NCBI GenBank assembly: GCA_029259915.1
Contig: JAJDED010000010.1
Coordinates: forward strand, 1 to 64,000
DNA length: 64,000 nucleotides
From: Planctomycetota bacterium
GTDB lineage: Bacteria > Planctomycetota > Planctomycetia > Pirellulales > Lacipirellulaceae
Direction of reading: 5' to 3'
Positions 48,261 to 59,264 of the stretch are shown here, in pieces. Numbering within the stretch: position 1 is the stretch's first letter; each line of letters starts with the position of its first letter. The notes below the pieces were generated by a model that worked only from the letters and a program-made list of their open reading frames with translations, made no database searches and was not told the DNA's origin. Made by a program: the position numbers and the translations under genes.

Positions 48261-49325
48261 TCAATTCTGTTCTTCAACAGACAAGAAATACCTTTGTTGA
48301 AAACGCAAAGCAACACCCACCAAGCCAATCAGTACCGGCACTTCCACCAGGGGACCGATGACTGCCGCAAACGCTTGACCAGAATCAATTCCGAAGACGG
48401 CCACCGCGACGGCAATCGCTAATTCAAAATTATTGCTAGCTGCAGTAAATGCAACAGTAGCCGTGCGAGAGTAATTCGCACCGATACGTTTCCCCATCCA
48501 GAACGACACGAGAAACATCACCACAAAATAAATGCACAGTGGAACCGCAATACGCAGCACGTCGAGTGGCAACTGCATGATGGTTTCGCCCTTCAGTGAA
48601 AACATCACGACAATCGTGAAGAGCAAAGCGATCAGCGTAAGCGGAGACACTCTCGGCACGAACACCGACTCGTACCACTCTTTGCCCTTCGACTTGAGCA
48701 GAAAGAATCGAGTCGCCATTCCAGCCGCGAACGGAATCCCGAGATAGATCAGCACACTCTTTGCGATATCGGAAATCGCGATCTGAACGACTGCCCCTTC
48801 GAGTCCAATGAGCGGTGGCAGGAACGTGATAAAGAACCACGCGTAAACCGAGTAAAACAGCACTTGAAACACCGAGTTGAACGCCACCAGCCCCGCAGCA
48901 TACTCGTTGTCGCCCTTGGCCAGCTCGTTCCAGACGATCACCATCGCGATGCAACGCGCAAGTCCAATCAGAATGAGCCCCACCATGTATTCGGGATAGC
49001 CCCGCAAAAAAACCACCGCCAAAGCAAACATCAATACCGGCCCAATCACCCAGTTTTGGACAAGCGAGAGCCCAAGGATTTTGGTGTTGCGAAAGACGTC
49101 GCCCAACTCCTCGTACTTCACCTTTGCCAACGGCGGGTACATCATCAGAATCAGGCCGATAGCTATCGGGACGTTGGTCGTTCCCACCTGAAAGCGGTTG
49201 ATAAACGATTCCACTCCAGGCACAAAGTACCCCAGCCCAACGCCACAAATCATCGCCAGAAAAATCCAAAGCGTGAGATAGCGATCAACAAAAGACAGTC
49301 GTCCAGGACAAGGGGCATCATTCAT
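48261..49325 (-). CDS. arsB: ACR3-family arsenite efflux transporter
   Basis: [77 protein letters not shown]; start could also be 49373. Confidence 0.93.
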
Positions 49326-49377
49326 GTATCTATTCTTCCTTGTTTTCTTACAGTCGCCAAAATCGATATCCATCGAC

Positions 49378-49749
49378 TCATTTTTTACTAGTTGTTCTTC
49401 GTCGTCGATTCTTTGCCTTCTTGTCTTTGCATGATCCTGATGTCGCTGGCCAACACAGGTGGGGTTGCCCCTGACAACAGTCCTCGCTGAGGAATTCCAT
49501 CAGGTCGCGAATGCCATCCGGTCGAAGCGCATAGATGATTGAACGCCCCTCGCGGCGCGACTCGACGAGCCGTGCGTGACATAGCTCTTTCAAGTGAAAC
49601 GTGAGGGTGGCTGGGGGTATCCCCAGTTGCTCCGCAATTTCCCCGGCTGCGAGACCCTCTTCTCCCAGCGGTACCAGCAATCGAAAGACTTCCAGGCGAG
49701 ATTCTTGGGCCAAAGCCGTGAGTGCGGTTACGGCGTCTTTTATTTTCAT
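49378..49749 (-). CDS. arsR: ArsR-family transcriptional repressor
   Basis: [73 protein letters not shown]-terminal [10 protein letters not shown]. Confidence 0.9.
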
Positions 49750-49763
49750 ATTTCTAAAAATAT
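49748..49763. promoter_or_regulatory. ATATTT-CTAA-AAATAT dyad at the arsR start, candidate ArsR operator
   Basis: Perfect 6-4-6 inverted repeat overlapping the arsR start codon. Confidence 0.35.
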
Positions 49764-49892
49764 CAAAATTATGACGGTGGATCAATCCCTCTCTATTCAG
49801 GAGGTTTTCTGGAAACAAATTTCCTCTCGAAAAACCTCTTGCCGTGAATTCCACTAAAAATCGTCGTCGAAAACGAATTTGAGAAACAAGCC

Positions 49893-49924
49893 TTGACTCC
49901 GTACCAAGGTACGGACGTTATACT
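49893..49924 (+). promoter_or_regulatory. mer-type promoter/operator
   Basis: TTGACT, then perfect dyad TCCGTACC-AA-GGTACGGA inside a 19-20 bp spacer, then TTATACT; matches known MerR-operator architecture. Confidence 0.85.
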
Positions 49925-49946: not shown

Positions 49947-50354
49947 ATGCCAGCATTATTAAAAACAGGCGAGCTTGCCCACGAGGCGGGGGTGAACGTC
50001 GAGACCATTCGCTTTTACGAACGTAAGGGCCTGCTTCCTGAGCCTCCGCGCCGCTCCTCAGGCCACCGGGAGTACCCACGCGAATCTGTCCGACGGATTC
50101 GTTTTATCCAACGTGGTAAGGAGCTTGGCTTTACGCTGCATGAGATTAAGGGGCTGCTAGAACTTCGCGTCGATCCCGAAACGAATTGCGACGCGGTACG
50201 AGAACGGGCGTTGGAGAAGATCGCCGATGTGAAGCACAAGATTGCCGACTTACGAAAGATTGAAAAGGCGCTTCGCAAACTCACCGATAGCTGCTCCGGA
50301 AACGGGCCCAAAGATGATTGTCCCATTCTCGTTCATTTGGAAAAGAACCTTTAA
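49947..50354 (+). CDS. merR: MerR-type mercury-responsive regulator
   Basis: LKTGELAHEAGVNVETIRFYERKGLLPEPPRRSSGHREY; three Cys in the MerR arrangement (TNCDAV...DSCSGNGPKDDCPIL). Confidence 0.9.
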   Translation: MPALLKTGELAHEAGVNVETIRFYERKGLLPEPPRRSSGHREYPRESVRRIRFIQRGKELGFTLHEIKGLLELRVDPETNCDAVRERALEKIADVKHKIADLRKIEKALRKLTDSCSGNGPKDDCPILVHLEKNL

Positions 50355-50365
50355 TCGGCAAACCA

Positions 50366-51343
50366 ATGTCTTCCAGCAGTTTTGATTTATCAGCCACTAG
50401 CCGTCGAGCATACACGCTGGTTGAATTGCTGGTGGTCATCGCGATTATCGGCATACTCGTGTCACTTTTGGTGCCTGCCGTTCAATCGGCGCGAGAATCT
50501 TCCCGGCGGTCAAGTTGCTCGAACAACCTCAAACAGCTTGGGCTGGCTGTGCACAGCTTTGAAAGTCAGCGAGGCCGCTTGCCCCGGTCGGGGACCGATC
50601 AACAACCGTTCAAGGAGTTGCGGAAACTGGGCGTCGGCATGAAGTTCAGTTGGGTCGTGTTGCTGCTCCCCTATCTGGACCAACAGACGATATACGAACG
50701 TTTTGATCTGAGCACCAATATCCTTCGGCAATCGGACGACCCACAAAATGAGCAAATTGCTTCGCTTCAATGCCCCAGCGATGAGAGTACCGGTCGACGC
50801 TATACAACCTCGCAATGTCCACTGTGCGTCGGCAATTTCTACGGCAAGGCCAACTATGCAGCATTTGTTAGTCCGTCTCAACTCGGTTTAACTTGGCAGG
50901 GATCGCTAAGCGAAGCGGGCCGACGGCTTGCGGAAGTCACCGACGGTTTGTCGCAGACAATACTTATCGGAGAAGTCCGCACTCGTGACCACGAGAGGGA
51001 TGTTCGCGGAGTTTGGGCGTTGCCTTGGCCAGGTGCCAGTTTGTTGGCTTTGGATTTCAACGTGTCAGACAGCGGTGGATTCGAGGTAGCTCGGACACCT
51101 AATTCCACTGCCCCAGATGTTCTCTTCGAATGCATTGAACCTGCAAAAGCGCAAAGTGAAGGGCTGCCATGCCACGATCAGTGGAATTTGTATATTTCCG
51201 ATGCACCGCGTAGTCAACATGCGGACGGGGTCAACGTCGTGTATCTTGATGGCCATGTGACATTCTTGCGCGACTCAGTTGCACCAAGCGTCCTGGCTCA
51301 GATGATCGCCGTTGACGACGGAACTACGACGCAAATTGAATAA
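50366..51343 (+). CDS. DUF1559 domain protein with type IV pilin-like N-terminal methylation motif
   Basis: RRAYTLVELLVVIAIIGILVSLLVPAVQSARESSRRSSCSNNLKQLGLAVHSFE; HADGVNVVYLDGHVTFLRDSV. Confidence 0.93.
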   Translation: MSSSSFDLSATSRRAYTLVELLVVIAIIGILVSLLVPAVQSARESSRRSSCSNNLKQLGLAVHSFESQRGRLPRSGTDQQPFKELRKLGVGMKFSWVVLLLPYLDQQTIYERFDLSTNILRQSDDPQNEQIASLQCPSDESTGRRYTTSQCPLCVGNFYGKANYAAFVSPSQLGLTWQGSLSEAGRRLAEVTDGLSQTILIGEVRTRDHERDVRGVWALPWPGASLLALDFNVSDSGGFEVARTPNSTAPDVLFECIEPAKAQSEGLPCHDQWNLYISDAPRSQHADGVNVVYLDGHVTFLRDSVAPSVLAQMIAVDDGTTTQIE

Positions 51344-51396: not shown

Positions 51397-52506
51397 ATGG
51401 CGAATGTATGTCCAAGCTGCGGTGCCAAGGGTCTGAAGGTCGAGCCCGTTACACTACGAGCCTTGCTTAGAGATGTGTTTGTGAATGACGTCGCAGATGA
51501 GAAATACCAATTCTGTAATGCCACGGAGTGCGAAGTAGTTTACTACAGGTCTAGTCAAACTTTCACCAAGTCTCAATTGAAGGTTCCGGTTGGAGTAAAA
51601 GAAAAGACTGGCAAGCGGCCCCTTTGCTATTGCTTTGGACATTCGGTCGCCAGCATCAAGGAAGAATTGCGAATCAAAGGCCACTCCGACGCGTTGGAGG
51701 ACATCCGACGGAAGATGGAAAACCCAGGTTGTCGCTGCGAGACCGAAAATCCGTCTGGCTCGTGCTGCCTGGGTAGCGTAGCTAAAGGAATCTCAACTGC
51801 TCAGGAGGAGCTTGAAACGAGTGATGCAGTCGTTGTTCCGGCAGGTTTTGCTACCAGGTCCCCTTCTATTCGCGGTGAGACTATCGCGAAGGTTGGCACA
51901 GTAGTTTCAGCAATCATAGCCTCCAGCTGCTGCTGGTTGCCGTTGGTGTTGTTGGCCGTCGGAGTGTCAGGAGCGGGTATCGCTTCGACAATGGAAGCTT
52001 ACCGTCCGTTGTTCATCGTCATCACCTTCGGTTTCTTGGCGGCGGCCTTCTACCTTACATACCGTCCAAAGAAAATTGGTGCCGGTGCTGAACTCGATTG
52101 TTGTACCACAGAAAAAGTCGAGGGCTGTTGCTCTCCGGCAACCAAGGGACGTTTTAGCATGATGGCGTTGAACAAGGTCATGCTTTGGGGCGTGACGGTG
52201 ATAGCCGTAGCGTTTTTGCTCTTTCCCAGTTACGTCGGAGCCTTCCTTGGAGGCGATGGAAGTACAGTGACTGCGAGCATGAACCGTTCGGTATTTGCCA
52301 TCGAAGGGATGACCTGTGAGGGCTGTTCGTCCGTTGCCGCCAAGGCGATCCGTGGCGTACCTGGCGTACTCGCTGTGGAAGTGAGCTATGCCGATGGGCA
52401 AGCTATGGTTGGCACCGAAGCATGTTGCGCTGTTCCCGAAAAAAAGATTCTTGCTGCAATTGAGGCTGCGGGATTCAACGGCCAGTTCACTTCAGCCGAC
52501 AAGTAG
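51397..52506 (+). CDS. Fusion: CopZ-like Zn/[2Fe-2S] domain + MerT-like transporter + MerP-like HMA domain
   Basis: VCPSCGAKG...FCNATECEVVYY...RPLCYCFGHSVASIKEEL; TM CC pair IIASSCCWLPLVLLAVGVSG; GMTCEGCSSVAAKAIRGVPGV. Confidence 0.9.
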   Translation: MANVCPSCGAKGLKVEPVTLRALLRDVFVNDVADEKYQFCNATECEVVYYRSSQTFTKSQLKVPVGVKEKTGKRPLCYCFGHSVASIKEELRIKGHSDALEDIRRKMENPGCRCETENPSGSCCLGSVAKGISTAQEELETSDAVVVPAGFATRSPSIRGETIAKVGTVVSAIIASSCCWLPLVLLAVGVSGAGIASTMEAYRPLFIVITFGFLAAAFYLTYRPKKIGAGAELDCCTTEKVEGCCSPATKGRFSMMALNKVMLWGVTVIAVAFLLFPSYVGAFLGGDGSTVTASMNRSVFAIEGMTCEGCSSVAAKAIRGVPGVLAVEVSYADGQAMVGTEACCAVPEKKILAAIEAAGFNGQFTSADK

Positions 52507-52521
52507 GGACATCCAGCTACT

Positions 52522-53880
52522 TCACGACTTGGAGATGGGTGTGCTGCGGATATAGAGCACTAGCAGGGCCACCACGGCAAAGATTGGCACAAGCGAGAGT
52601 CCCAACCAAACGCGGCGATTGGTGTATTCCTTGAGAACTGCCTCGGCATCCGCGTCGACCTCCGTGGTGACGGTGAGACCCTCGGTAACCGCCTCTTGCA
52701 CGGGCTCGATTGCGAAAGTGTGCACAAGGGTTCTCGCGTTGGTGAGGGCATCGTTCGCATCCCGCAAACGAAAACGGGGGCCCCGAATCTCCATTCCCAG
52801 ACGTTCGGCTTTATCCAGCTTTTCTTCCACGGTGCTGATTTGAGTCACCAAGTCGGCGAGTCCATCGTGCATTTGCCTGGCGATTTCCGCTCCAGCCAGC
52901 GTTGCTCCGTGCTCGCCTTCTTCATGGCATCGAGCGCAGAGGGCCCCATCAATCATTCCTAGCATCTTGTCGGTGGGAGAACGGATTTCATGATTTCCAT
53001 GACAAGTCGCGCAGCCGGGGAGATCAATTTTTTCGAAACTATGTTTCATTTTGGTCGTCGCAAACAACTCAGCCACTTTCACGTGGCATGTCCCGCACGC
53101 GTTGGCTACCGAATCGACGTCGGGCGGCACCGCGCCGTGATTGCCGTGGCAATCGTTGCAGGTGGCAGCGCTCAAGTCGCCCTTTTTCATCATCGCCTGG
53201 GCATGCACGCTTTTACTCCAAAGCTCGAATTGTTGATGGCCGAGTGGGCGGTCGTGATAATTACGACCGGCCATCAACTCCGCGTCCGCATGGCAAACGG
53301 CGCACGTCTTGGCCACACGCGTGGGATAGACGCGCGATTCCAAGTCGCCAACCGCTCGAGTGTCGTGCCCGCCATGGCAAGAGACACAGGTAGCTACCTT
53401 GGCAGTCGGTTTTTCCTGCAATAGTTGCCCATGTCCACTGGTCCAGTACTCTGTCTCCTGGTCGACCCGAGGCGAGGGCCGATAGCGCCGCATGTACTTG
53501 GTATTCGAGTGGCAATGTCCGCAAAAACCCGGAACATCCTGTGGCGATGTAAGGGAGCGGAAGCTTGGGTCGTTACGATGATCTACAAAATCATCAAGCT
53601 TAGGGTTGCCCCCGTGGCATTCGTGACAGCGGAGCCCTTTGCGCCAATGGATGTCCGTTTTGAGATCCTCTTCGGAAACAATCAGGTGCCGATTCTTTTC
53701 CGGTCCCGCGAGTGTGCCATTCTTGCCGTGACAAAACATGCACGAGTAGTCCTCTTCCAAACGCTCGGGGACGGCAGCTTCCGCGACGGGAACCACCGCA
53801 TCGTTTTCATCAGGGGCTGCTGCAAAAACTGCTGAGTGAAATAACGTGATCCCAAAAATAATGCTAGCCAGGGCTTTCAT
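52522..53880 (-). CDS. Nine-CXXCH multiheme cytochrome c with C-terminal TM
   Basis: Counted CMFCH, CHECH, CGHCH, CVSCH, CAVCH, CNDCH, CGTCH, CATCH, CARCH; ATGA overlap with the cytochrome b stop. Confidence 0.9.
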   Translation of the reverse strand: MKALASIIFGITLFHSAVFAAAPDENDAVVPVAEAAVPERLEEDYSCMFCHGKNGTLAGPEKNRHLIVSEEDLKTDIHWRKGLRCHECHGGNPKLDDFVDHRNDPSFRSLTSPQDVPGFCGHCHSNTKYMRRYRPSPRVDQETEYWTSGHGQLLQEKPTAKVATCVSCHGGHDTRAVGDLESRVYPTRVAKTCAVCHADAELMAGRNYHDRPLGHQQFELWSKSVHAQAMMKKGDLSAATCNDCHGNHGAVPPDVDSVANACGTCHVKVAELFATTKMKHSFEKIDLPGCATCHGNHEIRSPTDKMLGMIDGALCARCHEEGEHGATLAGAEIARQMHDGLADLVTQISTVEEKLDKAERLGMEIRGPRFRLRDANDALTNARTLVHTFAIEPVQEAVTEGLTVTTEVDADAEAVLKEYTNRRVWLGLSLVPIFAVVALLVLYIRSTPISKS

Positions 53881-55148
53881 AGGGTGAGCTCCCATAAAAG
53901 ACCAACCATCAACAAGCAGAAAGCCAATGTTCCCAGCAGCCACAAAACCGACCGCGACCGTGTTCCGCGATTAGTAAACGGAATGGTCAACGCGAGCGAT
54001 CCCAACGATAGCGATGCCCCGAGAATTAATCTTAAGCTGTTCTTATCGAAATAACCCCAAGCGGTCATGACGATAAAGAAGAGTACCGCAGCCGTTGCCA
54101 GGATATTGAGCACATGTCGGCTCCGCGGTCCTCGGTCGAGAAAAGGAACCACGAGCACCACGAGACCAACCCCGCCGAAAAACAGGGTCCCCAACATCTC
54201 GCCTTCCATGCCAAGAATATGCCCCGGCAACTGCTTCAGCGCCTGAAACATAAACAGGAAGTACCATTCCGGTTTGATCCCTTCGGGTGCCGACCCGAAA
54301 GGATCGGCTTTCTCTCCGAGTTCCCAAGGAAACAAAGCTGCCAATGCTGCCAACAAACCCAAAGCGAGATACCACCCAACGGCGTCGCGCAACAGAAAGT
54401 CGGGAACAAAAGGCATGGTGGGAATCTGCTGTCGGCCTCCGTAACGCCGGAGGTCTCGCTCTGGAATACTCATTCCATGTTGTTGCACCATGAACAAGTG
54501 AAAACCGAGCATGCCGAGCGTCAGCAGTGGCAAAATGGCCACGTGCAATGCGTAAAACCGGCTGAGAGTATCCCCGGTAACGTTTTCGCCACCGCGAGCA
54601 AGCAACAACAAGTCCGGCCCGACCACGGGAACAACTCCCACAAGGGCGGTCCCCACACGCGTCGCGAAAAATGCCAGCTGGTTCCAGGGCAGCAGGTAAC
54701 CACTGAACCCAAACGCCATGAACAATAGCAACAACAGAATCCCGGAAACCCAAGTGAGTTCGCGTGGCCGATGGTAAGCGCGCATCATATAGGCTGTAAG
54801 CAAATGCAAAAAAAGAATCCCGATCAAGAGATTGGCAGCCCAGGAGTGAACCGATCGGATCAGCCAGCCAAAGTCGACCTCCGTCATAAACGCTTGAACG
54901 CTTTCAAACGCCTGATCTGGAGAGGGCTTGTAGTACAGAGAAAGCAGCACCCCGCTGATTATCTGGACAATGAAGAGGAAGAGTGCCATTCCTCCTAAGA
55001 AATAGAAGTGTGTGCTGCGGTGAATGGGTACCAGTTTTTTGGCAGCAAGGCCGGCCAGCACTTCCAATCCCAAACGTTCGTGGAAGAACTTCTGGATTCC
55101 TTCGGTGCGTGCCGGTGAGACCGCAGATTCTTCAGGCGCGTGAGACAA
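53877..55148 (-). CDS. Cytochrome b of a bc/b6f-type complex (N- and C-terminal parts fused)
   Basis: VPIHRSTHFYFLGGMALFLFIVQIISGVLLSLYYKP, FSGYLLPWNQLAFFATRVGT, GIKPEWYFLFMFQALKQLPG; probable TTG start at 55148 overlapping the Rieske gene. Confidence 0.92.
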   Translation of the reverse strand: MSHAPEESAVSPARTEGIQKFFHERLGLEVLAGLAAKKLVPIHRSTHFYFLGGMALFLFIVQIISGVLLSLYYKPSPDQAFESVQAFMTEVDFGWLIRSVHSWAANLLIGILFLHLLTAYMMRAYHRPRELTWVSGILLLLLFMAFGFSGYLLPWNQLAFFATRVGTALVGVVPVVGPDLLLLARGGENVTGDTLSRFYALHVAILPLLTLGMLGFHLFMVQQHGMSIPERDLRRYGGRQQIPTMPFVPDFLLRDAVGWYLALGLLAALAALFPWELGEKADPFGSAPEGIKPEWYFLFMFQALKQLPGHILGMEGEMLGTLFFGGVGLVVLVVPFLDRGPRSRHVLNILATAAVLFFIVMTAWGYFDKNSLRLILGASLSLGSLALTIPFTNRGTRSRSVLWLLGTLAFCLLMVGLLWELTL

Positions 55149-55650
55149 TGATCTCCTCCTGGCCTGGTTTTCCACGAAGGTTGACCTTGAAGGATTCGAG
55201 TGGCCTCGGCGGTGGCCCGGCAACATTGCGACCGTTTATGTCGTAAACGCCACCATGGCAGCTGCAATAAATGTCGCCCTCTTGGGGACGAAACTTCACC
55301 GTGCAATCGGTATGTGTACAAACCGCATTGAATGCTTTCACCTCGCCATCGAGGGTTCGCACAAGGATGCACGGTTTGCCCGCAAATTCAAATGGCGCGG
55401 GCCAGTTCCCCTCTTCGTCGGGCCGCAGTTGATTCACACGCAGTGGAGCAACCACTTGGAACGCCCCGGAGCTTGTGCTTCGCCGAGGTTTCAGAAACCG
55501 CAGGACGGGATACAGGAGGCTCGCAACCGTGGCCAGATTCATGCCCACCAGCATGCGAAACAACCAAGAACGCCGCGGACAATTGTCGCATGTGTCGAGC
55601 TTGTCACATTTATCTTCCACCGGTGCTTGCTCCAATGATGGCCACTGCAA
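55132..55650 (-). CDS. Rieske 2Fe-2S protein
   Basis: N-terminal TM; CTHTDCTVKF and CSCHGGVYD cluster-binding motifs. Confidence 0.95.
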   Translation of the reverse strand: MQWPSLEQAPVEDKCDKLDTCDNCPRRSWLFRMLVGMNLATVASLLYPVLRFLKPRRSTSSGAFQVVAPLRVNQLRPDEEGNWPAPFEFAGKPCILVRTLDGEVKAFNAVCTHTDCTVKFRPQEGDIYCSCHGGVYDINGRNVAGPPPRPLESFKVNLRGKPGQEEIIVSRA

Positions 55651-55818
55651 GTTAGCTGATTTCCGATAATACGCCAGCCGACAATAGCTAATAGCTAGCC
55701 GCTAACAGCTCAAAATTATAACCATTTCCGCCAATGATCCAATAAACTTTCGGGAAGACGCAACACACAAGTTGCTCATCCCAATCGGTTTGACAACCAG
55801 TATCAATAAATCACCCTC

Positions 55819-57786
55819 TTATGTGAAAAGTCCAATCACAATGGCGACCAGCAGCGCCAAGCCAACAAGCAGGGCAAAAATCCCAGCCATGGCCAATAAG
55901 AAGGACGAACCACGGGACGGAATCGGGGACTGCAACAACTCCAATCTGCCTTCGCGTTTCAGCCGTTCGTAATACTCCGGTCGCTCCTCGCGTAATTCCT
56001 CTTCGCTCGTCAGGCCGGTGAGAATCGACATATCCAGAGGGAATTTTTCCGGGCGAAAATGCGTGTTGAAGAAATGGATTGAAAACACAAATCCCGTGGC
56101 CAACAGAGCCAGTTTGCCATGGATCAGGTGGGCAAAGTTCAGCGTTTCCCCTGGGAGCACGGCACAGAACTGCGTCGGAAACCACAAGATCAGGCCCGTC
56201 GAACCGATGAGGATGATGTCGGCACTGGCGGCCCAGAGGTCGAATTTCTCCCAATACGACCAACGCTCGAAAGTCGGCTTCGGCCCGAGACCGACGAACC
56301 AACGCAACATTCCGAAAAAATCCTGGAAGTCACGGCGATTGGGTACCGGAGAATCGGGGCTGAAAAGCCAAGTGAATCGTCCGGTACCATCCGCGGGTCC
56401 GACGATCAGTCGACCTAGCAACCACGACAAGTAAAACAACAGGCAACCGATATTCGCCACGCCGAAAATACGGTGCCAGAGTCCGGTTGAAGCAAAATCG
56501 CCCAGCAGCCCGGACAACGTATGTGCCCAACCGTATTCGCTGTACTTCAACGGCAAACCGGTCAGCGCCAGCCCCAGAAACGAGACCATCAGCACAGCGT
56601 GGGCAAAGCGATGCACAGGCTTAAACCGAACATAGGCGGTCGTCCCCGGCGAAGGATGTTCGGGACGCTTCTGGTGGCGGAGACTGATAAAACTGCGACC
56701 AAACCAAAGAAGCGTGTGTATGCCGAAAATGGAAAATACCGTGATCAAAAGATACGTGATCCCAAGGTCCACCCAATAAAGGGCCGGGTTGCGTGTGGCG
56801 TCGTGAGGGTCGGCATGGGGATCGAACTCTAAAAAATTGCTGCTCACGTCCGGATGACACTGTCCGCACGTTTGGTGACGATTGACCTTGGAAAGCCGAG
56901 AATCGGTTTCCGTCACCGGAAGAATATCGTGGGCCCCATGACAATCGGAACACTCGGCTGCAGGGACGTAGCCAAGTTCGGTAAGTTGCCCATGCAGGCT
57001 AATCGCATACTGGGTGGAAAGTTCCGCATGACAATCGCCGCAACGCTCCGCCATTCCCAGCCGAAAATCGGGCGACCGGGGATGTGCAAGATCGTGCCCC
57101 TGATGGCAATCGGTGCAGCTTGCGGTTCGCTTGACCTGCCCGCCCGGCGCGGGGTCTTTAGTCTTCCCACCCAGCCCCGCTTCGCGGCCATGCACACTCC
57201 GCTGTACGCGCTCGTCGACAAATCGGTGACATGTTGCGCAAGTTGCCGCGACATTGGTCGCATGCAATGACGACTGCGGATCCGACGCTGGAAAGATGCC
57301 GTGACTACCATGGCAATCCGTGCAAACAGCCGTGGCAACCAGCCCCGATTTCTCCAACCCATGCCCGTGTACACTCGCCAAGTACGTTCTCAGAGCTTCC
57401 TGATGGCAGCTACCACAGAGCCCGATTTGTGTTTCGAGACGCGATGCCGAGCGTTTAACGTGATTTAACGGCGACCTGAAGGGAAGCACTCCTGATTGTG
57501 CGCCTTCGACATGCGTTGCATGAGCCTTCCCAACATCGAAGCTACTGGGATCTCCACCATGACAATCGTGGCAGTTGACACCCTGTTTCCAATGCGCGTC
57601 CTCAGCCAACGTTTCCATGGGTACATACAACCGCAACGTATCGCCTTCCCACAAATCACGTTCACCGTGGCAGGCGGCGCAATTGTTCTTTTCCGGCGGC
57701 AGGCGCGAACCGCGGGGCTCGGCAGCGGCACCCGGGCACTCGGCCAACAACACAAACAACAGCGTGAGCGACATTAGTGACTTCAT
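55819..57786 (-). CDS. CbcL-like fusion: 9-CXXCH cytochrome c + C-terminal b-type TM domain
   Basis: Nine CXXCH, then RFKPVHRFAHAVLMVSFLGLALTGLPLKYS...WHRIFGVANIGCLLFYL...IHGKLALLATGFVFSIHFFNTHFRPEKFP. Confidence 0.88.
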   Translation of the reverse strand: MKSLMSLTLLFVLLAECPGAAAEPRGSRLPPEKNNCAACHGERDLWEGDTLRLYVPMETLAEDAHWKQGVNCHDCHGGDPSSFDVGKAHATHVEGAQSGVLPFRSPLNHVKRSASRLETQIGLCGSCHQEALRTYLASVHGHGLEKSGLVATAVCTDCHGSHGIFPASDPQSSLHATNVAATCATCHRFVDERVQRSVHGREAGLGGKTKDPAPGGQVKRTASCTDCHQGHDLAHPRSPDFRLGMAERCGDCHAELSTQYAISLHGQLTELGYVPAAECSDCHGAHDILPVTETDSRLSKVNRHQTCGQCHPDVSSNFLEFDPHADPHDATRNPALYWVDLGITYLLITVFSIFGIHTLLWFGRSFISLRHQKRPEHPSPGTTAYVRFKPVHRFAHAVLMVSFLGLALTGLPLKYSEYGWAHTLSGLLGDFASTGLWHRIFGVANIGCLLFYLSWLLGRLIVGPADGTGRFTWLFSPDSPVPNRRDFQDFFGMLRWFVGLGPKPTFERWSYWEKFDLWAASADIILIGSTGLILWFPTQFCAVLPGETLNFAHLIHGKLALLATGFVFSIHFFNTHFRPEKFPLDMSILTGLTSEEELREERPEYYERLKREGRLELLQSPIPSRGSSFLLAMAGIFALLVGLALLVAIVIGLFT

Positions 57787-59264
57787 TGCATCTTTTCGAC
57801 CTTATTAGGCAAAACCACCTGCGGTTCTTCAATCGTTAACTCGCGGCAGATTGCTATCAATTGATCTACCAAATTGCGGGTGACCGACGTGGTGTAGTGG
57901 ATGTTGTGAATACCGTTGCCAACACGGATGAAATTCAAGTTGTCTTCCAGTTCTTCTAATTGTTTTTCGATCTCTATCACTCGCGTTTCATCCAGACTGG
58001 ACGCTTTGAGTGCTTCGTAAACATGCGATAAATTTGCTTCGATCTCAGCTAGAGAATCTTTCAGCAACTGGTGATGCGCTTGAAGCCTTTCGGTGGCCAG
58101 TGCGTCATGGCATTGGGTACAGACTTTCGTCGAAGCTTTCCAAAGAACGGTCCCCGTTGGCGAAATTTCCTTGACCTGGTGGCACGAAGGACATGCAATC
58201 CGAGCGCCGGCCATGCCGCTTTGATGCGCAAAATCGCCCTTCGCACCTTTGCCCAATAACATCCGAACCTGTTCGCCGTGTTGATTGGGGTGACACGACT
58301 TGCAATCAGAAGCAGCGTGCTCAATCCTCTGCGGGTCCAACGAATGTTGGATCTCTAAATGGCATTCAAGACAGTCGACTTTGTGATCAGTCACGTGCTT
58401 CTGGTGCAAGAACACGTGGTCGTCTATCTGTTTCAGATCTTCCTCGCGATCGTGACACACCGTGCATCGTTCGAACGGGACGACTCCGTTGCCACGGATT
58501 AAGTCGCCATGACAATTGGCACAATCCACACCGCGCTCGTACGCCAATTCGTGGCTAAATTTTACTCCTCCCCCCAAGTCAAACGTCTCTTCCGGGATCT
58601 GGTGGCAACGGGTACAGGTTCCCAATCCCTCGTTGAACAACCCTTCTTTGAAATGGCACAAAAAGCATGTCGACGTGGTAACGGTCATGTGTTTCCCCTG
58701 CATGACCTGACTGTGGCAACTGGTGCAGCGCAGCCGCTTTTCGCGTCGCAACCCGGTGAGATGCGGGCGGTGATCGAAGGGAACACCGTGAAACTCAACG
58801 CGACCGGAGAGCAATCGCGTATCGTGACAGCGCAAACAACTGGCGTCAGATATCTCGGCAGCCGGGCGCGGGCCGGCGCTTTCGGTAACATACTTCAGCA
58901 GTTGGACGAGCCCCATCAACTTTCCTCGCACCTTTTCCCCGGCGCCGGGTGGAAAATGGCACTTGATACAGGACACATCCTTATGGCTCGACTCCTGCCA
59001 CGAAACGTAATAGGGTTCCATGATGTGGCATGAGCGGCAAAATTGTGGCCGCGAAGTATAAGTTGCCGCCCCGCCCGTCAGCAGCATCGATAACAGTAGG
59101 AAGGCGCCGAATACCGCCGCAATTCGCAAAGCGATCAAACGCGCCCGCTGCCAAAACGTTCGTTGGTCGGGCGGATCAGTGGGTTCAGCCGCACCGACGC
59201 CGGTGGAAGAGACCGGGAAGTCGGTCGTGCTTTGAGTGCCGGAAAGTGGTTCTTTTTCGGGCAT
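57783..59264 (-). CDS. 12-CXXCH NapC/NirT-type multiheme cytochrome c with N-terminal anchor
   Basis: N-terminal TM then CRSCHIMEPYYVSWQESSHKDVSCIKCHFPPG; 12 CXXCH counted. Confidence 0.88.
   Translation of the reverse strand: MPEKEPLSGTQSTTDFPVSSTGVGAAEPTDPPDQRTFWQRARLIALRIAAVFGAFLLLSMLLTGGAATYTSRPQFCRSCHIMEPYYVSWQESSHKDVSCIKCHFPPGAGEKVRGKLMGLVQLLKYVTESAGPRPAAEISDASCLRCHDTRLLSGRVEFHGVPFDHRPHLTGLRREKRLRCTSCHSQVMQGKHMTVTTSTCFLCHFKEGLFNEGLGTCTRCHQIPEETFDLGGGVKFSHELAYERGVDCANCHGDLIRGNGVVPFERCTVCHDREEDLKQIDDHVFLHQKHVTDHKVDCLECHLEIQHSLDPQRIEHAASDCKSCHPNQHGEQVRMLLGKGAKGDFAHQSGMAGARIACPSCHQVKEISPTGTVLWKASTKVCTQCHDALATERLQAHHQLLKDSLAEIEANLSHVYEALKASSLDETRVIEIEKQLEELEDNLNFIRVGNGIHNIHYTTSVTRNLVDQLIAICRELTIEEPQVVLPNKVEKMQ

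Follow-up and report, generated by a model that had tools for sequence, protein, structure and literature searches.

Planctomycetes carry genes in which parts known from separate metal-handling systems are joined in one reading frame. In an assembly of the family Lacipirellulaceae (GCA_029259915.1), such a gene lies on contig JAJDED010000010.1, in a stretch of 64,000 nucleotides (positions 1 to 64,000, forward strand) which is called the window throughout. The gene joins a CopZ-type domain, a MerT-type membrane segment and a MerP-like domain, and no merA is seen within the window. The locus raises the question which metal such a chain handles, in which direction, and where the metal goes.

Architecture of the fusion protein

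The open reading frame begins with ATG and contains zero internal stops and no in-frame TGA. Its parts are the following:

51397-52506, forward strand: fusion ORF of 369 aa, CopZ-type N-terminal domain, MerT and HMA/MerP (Pfam and NCBIfam profiles)
51403-51780, forward strand: CopZ-type N-terminal [2Fe-2S]/Zn domain, residues 3-128 (PF18423, NF047645, sequence and fold of 2HU9)
51871-52245, forward strand: MerT membrane segment with three helices, residues 159-283 (PF02411, AlphaFold2 helices, hydropathy peaks)
52282-52488, forward strand: HMA/MerP-like domain with GMTCEGC (C307/C310), residues 296-364, predicted periplasmic (PF00403, fold matches)

All three Pfam domains exceeded their curated cut-offs and appear in the order zf_CopZ (PF18423, residues 3-62, 65.6 bits against 28.4), MerT (PF02411, residues 164-227, 41.3 bits against 32.9) and HMA (PF00403, residues 299-360, 44.1 bits against 24.8), just as the initial annotation had proposed for a triple fusion of CopZ-type, MerT and MerP parts. 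The MerT match spans only profile positions 10-75, which counts against a MerTP-type uptake protein. Similarly, the threshold of the MerTP equivalog NF033556 was not reached (99.1 bits against 180), a point against a MerTP reading; by its sequence the protein is related to this equivalog, yet not filed under it. The HMA domain did not reach the threshold of the MerP model TIGR02052 either (21.6 against 92.55). A fluke of the window or a frameshift chimera is ruled out, since the same architecture was present in 52/52 aligned sequences.

For the N-terminal part, the NCBIfam model NF047645, named 'iron-sulfur cluster-binding metallochaperone', matched residues 3-128 with 111.7 bits (cut-off 100). 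A phmmer search against the PDB aligned the N-terminal domain of A. fulgidus CopZ (2HU9) to residues 5-125 (E 1.7e-16) with all nine aligned 2HU9 cysteines retained, and 2HU9 was also the top Foldseek match of the predicted fold (E 2.2e-9, TM 0.84-0.85 over the target). The kinship with the CopZ Fe-S family, on which the initial annotation had staked its proposal, was thus recovered by PF18423, NF047645 and 2HU9 alike. By homology, putative Zn ligands are C5, C8, C40 and C45, and putative Fe-S ligands are to be sought among C77, C79, C114, C123 and C124. A Cys-rich linker (CRC...CC) had been described behind this domain as well. Its cysteines are present, but they do not make up a separate linker: C114, C123 and C124 line up with cysteines at the C-terminal end of 2HU9, and the pairs C112/C114 and C123/C124 fall within the latter half of the Fe-S domain, which rules out a separate metal site. 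The true linker (about residues 129-158) has zero Cys in the window protein. A. fulgidus CopZ has the same N-terminal fold and also an HMA domain; however, it is soluble, copper-linked and without a membrane segment, whereas the two metal domains of the fusion flank the MerT core on opposite sides.

The AlphaFold2 model, for which the window protein and 51 relatives served as input, reached a mean pLDDT of 82, with about 85-97 in both metal domains and low confidence in the linker and in the loop between the second and third membrane helix (TM2-TM3 loop). Because the pTM was 0.52, the model does not fix the arrangement of the domains. The MerT helices comprise residues 159-187, 192-222 and 255-283; a CC pair (C178/C179) is located in TM1, and the TM2-TM3 loop carries C235/C236 and C244/C245. 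Among the many HMA folds that Foldseek matched after 2HU9 were the MerP structures 1osd and 1afi. K/R residues abound in the loop (223-254) and not in the stretch following TM3; by the positive-inside rule, this points to a cytoplasmic N-terminal domain and loop and a periplasmic HMA domain. Such a predicted topology is consistent with a path from periplasm to cytoplasm, as the proposed relay in one chain implies.

The MerTP fusion (NF033556) and the MerT and MerP proteins of mer operons share with this protein a CC pair within TM1, a cytoplasmic loop that bears cysteines and an outward HMA domain, and control by MerR with a mer operator is likewise found at the fusion locus. The fusion differs from them by the extra CopZ-type domain and by the usual absence of merA, and the clade of the window protein has CC...CC in place of their C-x5-C MerT loop. 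Each of the three modules is already known, as are MerTP fusions and MerT/HMA selenoproteins. In the databases, NF047645 (CopZ_Nterm_CC) is the family of the N-terminal domain and NF045683 (MerT/CopZ fusion-like selenoprotein) that of MerT-HMA fusions; the three-domain chain lies outside the description of both, and no profile model matched here describes it. A search of the open literature found no published characterisation of the triple fusion.

Distribution and conservation

The survey of taxonomic spread that the initial annotation had suggested revealed a patchy occurrence within Planctomycetota and, in addition, some carriers among MAGs of Verrucomicrobiota and other groups. A full-length or near full-length fusion was found in about two dozen of 395 Planctomycetota genomes, and 3/13 other genomes of the same genus carry it, one of them partially. 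When 85,462 species genomes were scanned, at least 79 loci were found; at least 68 of the loci listed encode at least the CopZ-type domain and MerT in one frame, most of them being full triple fusions and a few being cut by contig ends. Carriers among the loci listed are mostly Planctomycetota, joined by MAGs labelled Verrucomicrobia (Verrucomicrobiota), Nitrospirae and Myxococcales, some of which may be mis-binned contigs. The fusion is a recurrent, patchy planctomycete architecture with dozens of members and is not unique to the window. One copy (L150, CP036351.1:37939-39174) resides on a 70-kb mobilizable plasmid and is annotated 'merA: Mercuric reductase'. This label is a misannotation, and it exemplifies that the existing annotation of the fusion is misleading in places.

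In the alignment of 52 sequences, the relatives are 33-67% identical to the window protein and the three Pfam domains were all found in 52/52. Twelve cysteines are invariant: C40, C45, C77, C79, C114, C123, C124, C178, C179, C244, C307 and C310. C5 is kept in all 51 sequences having a residue there, one gap being the sole variation, and C8 is missing from some of the 52. The sequences form two groups: that of the window protein, with the CC...CC loop and a linker without cysteines, versus a second one whose MerT loop is of the canonical C-x5-C type and whose linker contains Cys. A separate Cys-bearing linker was seen only in this latter clade.

Trees of the CopZ half and of the MerT-HMA half show the same deepest split (23 members, support 0.98/0.97), and the distances of the two halves are correlated (r 0.77, 0/999 permutations). 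Other supported splits are in conflict between the two trees, and given this conflict a later exchange between the halves may have occurred. At two loci (L026 and L155) a CopZ-type gene stands beside a MerT-HMA gene, which argues for a functional link between the halves. Several relatives have additional C-terminal HMA copies. In the case of L154 (G001) and L155 (G006), the MerT-HMA gene has an in-frame TGA in its GMT-x metal motif, probably encoding selenocysteine; in L155 the separate CopZ-type gene follows this TGA-containing gene.

Regulator, operator and neighbouring genes

Upstream of the fusion, the window contains the following elements:

49893-49924, forward strand: mer operator/promoter TTGACTCCGTACCAAGGTACGG (TTGACT, dyad CCGTAC-N4-GTACGG, TTATAC/TATACT, 19/20-bp spacer)
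49947-50354, forward strand: merR, 135 aa, ATG start (C81/C116/C125-P126; TIGR02051)
50366-51343, forward strand: DUF1559/pseudopilin-like gene between merR and the fusion (PF07596)

The residues C81/C116/C125-P126 of the window MerR equal C82/C117/C126-P127 of Tn501 MerR, shifted by one, and C82, C117 and C126 are the Hg(II) ligands of the Tn501 protein (PMC5027573). Alongside this Hg(II) triad, the CP(I/L) motif is present as CPIL. Scored on a longer ORF with TTG start, merR remained slightly below the TIGR02051 cut-off (143.2 against 150.85 bits). The element at 49893 is an exact match to a mer-type operator, with 0 occurrences in 100 shuffles. It precedes an Hg-type merR or the fusion at about 11 other fusion loci, and the mer operon of pUM505 has it with one base changed. 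At three loci, the end of merR runs into the beginning of the fusion, with 4 bp shared by both genes. Regulators with 40% identity or more to the window MerR were found at 26/68 listed loci and a more divergent MerR at 39/68, some loci having both; the divergent regulators count against the mercury reading.

In the window, merR and the fusion are kept apart by the DUF1559 gene, a point against a Hg(II)-induced uptake protein. In the same genus, the merR-fusion pair of L161 lacks this gene. It is therefore probably a local insertion outside the mechanism, and a role as conserved partner is ruled out on the same ground. Divergent from merR lie genes for an ACR3 arsenite exporter and an ArsR-family regulator (48261-49854, reverse strand), so that arsenic and mercury-type genes stand back to back; ACR3 is also found near the fusion at two other loci (about 80% identity). 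Directly downstream of the fusion, the opposite strand carries a multiheme c-type cytochrome cluster with cytochrome b- and Rieske-like genes (52522-59264, reverse strand). Elsewhere in the genome there is a second Hg-type MerR, 47% identical (L058 (G000:C48):3055-3444, reverse strand). It adjoins an unrelated-looking membrane protein of 772 aa, and mer genes were not seen nearby.

Mercury uptake and the fate of the metal

That merA is missing from the window, as noted initially, was found for the assembly as a whole: no gene exceeded the TIGR02053 cut-off. Because the assembly is 93.2% complete, the absence of merA from the genome is likely and not proven. The genome contains only MerA-like relatives below the cut-off, all ruled out as MerA. 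L031 is classed as an NF004991 FAD-containing oxidoreductase and lacks the Cys pair at the C-terminus; L032 and L033 scored far below the cut-off and, by sequence, resemble lipoamide dehydrogenase and transhydrogenase types. A search for MerB gave zero matches in the window genome, as did the control in every genome. Among the 28 genomes that encode the fusion or its halves side by side, 26 gave no MerA above the cut-off. Only 4/395 Planctomycetota genomes have it, and in all four an adjacent MerT-HMA protein, fused or not, is encoded. A genuine MerA, counted as such if above the cut-off or ending in SCCA (C-terminal CC), was detected downstream of the fusion within about 2 kb at seven distinct loci. 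A longer cut of one of these regions (L164) comprises the fusion, a MerF-like gene, merA and an Hg-type merR with operator; the MerF-like gene, between fusion and merA, is a weak NCBIfam match below the cut-off.

Mercury is the best-supported metal for the fusion. We consider it rather probable that the protein is a MerTP-type uptake protein for Hg(II), as a soft metal, which bears a CopZ-type metallochaperone domain on its cytoplasmic end and is made when MerR senses Hg(II). The outward HMA domain would capture Hg(II) with C307/C310 and pass it to the CC pair C178/C179 in TM1, from where it would move on to the loop cysteines C235/C236 and C244/C245. The tethered CopZ-type domain would then receive Hg(II) as a built-in acceptor and keep free Hg(II) out of the cytosol. 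The final sink may vary by genome, being MerA where merA is adjacent; elsewhere a heavy-metal P-type ATPase may serve, or else thiols or some other reductase. An importer of Hg(II) should do harm where a sink is lacking and, with merA missing in the window assembly, this counts against uptake. Nakahara reportedly described Hg hypersensitivity from cloned mer fragments in 1979, as cited by title in PMC4570782. If mer fragments can have this effect, a tethered acceptor would make sense.

A heavy-metal P-type ATPase above the TIGR01525 cut-off is encoded directly beside the fusion in L163/L071. Another one (L165:2849-5583), also above this cut-off, has a 4-bp overlap with a truncated fusion copy of the same genus, from which most of the CopZ-type domain is lost, and a third, recognised by eye, is convergent to the fusion in L042. 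Such neighbours would suit a protein that passes Hg(II)/Cd(II)/Pb(II)/Zn(II) through its CopZ-type domain to the ATPase for efflux, as archaeal CopZ serves CopA, and A. fulgidus CopZ indeed has a Cu ATPase as partner (PMC5552934). However, an ATPase is nearby at only 5/68 listed loci and none belongs to the window operon, the window MerR is Hg-type, and to import the metal just to export it again would be futile, unless the aim is to clear the periplasm. Hence, efflux appears unlikely.

The closest structure being that of the A. fulgidus CopZ domain, the fusion might also serve mainly copper, its CopZ-type domain using the [2Fe-2S] cluster to reduce Cu(II) to Cu(I), an activity reported for the Fe-S domain of AfCopZ (cited in PMC7558416). 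The Hg-type MerR triad, the mer operator and the merA linkage speak against copper, and the membrane part is MerT and not a Cu transporter, so that we regard this reading as distinctly unlikely.

Another proposal concerns hosts without merA, where an L031-type MerA-like FAD-containing oxidoreductase, lacking the C-terminal CC, would take Hg(II) from the fusion. L031 is encoded in the window genome, and relatives of it adjoin the fusion in two cases. One from a Limisphaerales MAG (L146:563-3191), 71% identical to L031, ends about 22 bp upstream of the fusion on the same strand and is a candidate alternative reductase; the other (L131/G148) is convergent. Yet similar-scoring relatives occur in nearly all genomes examined and are mostly unlinked to the fusion, as is L031 itself in the window genome. 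Together with its score below the MerA cut-off, its NF004991 class and the missing vicinal pair, this leaves such a flavoprotein a slim chance.

The redox-coupled release that the initial annotation had suggested on account of the Fe-S domain found no support in these results. Since cupric reduction was reported for AfCopZ, the fused domain could conceivably reduce metal. By this analogy, the tethered [2Fe-2S]/Zn domain might be the endpoint in most carriers and, independently of merA, either retain Hg(II) or reduce it to Hg(0); capture, transport and detoxification would then be achieved by a single polypeptide. We think this very unlikely. A non-functional, horizontally acquired mer fragment, interrupted by DUF1559 and deprived of merA, would fit the patchy presence in the genus, the truncated L165 copy and the plasmid-borne relative, but is highly improbable in view of the intact ORF with every conserved Cys, the perfect operator, the MerR triad and the fact that copies without merA are the rule across the phylum.

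If Hg(II) uptake by the fusion holds true, it would explain how Hg can be imported safely, the metal being bound to one chain from the periplasm to the cytoplasmic acceptor. The finding raises the question why MerA mostly does not accompany the Hg-regulated importers of planctomycetes. For the CopZ-type Fe-S domain, of which little is understood, the fusion offers a context linked to function.
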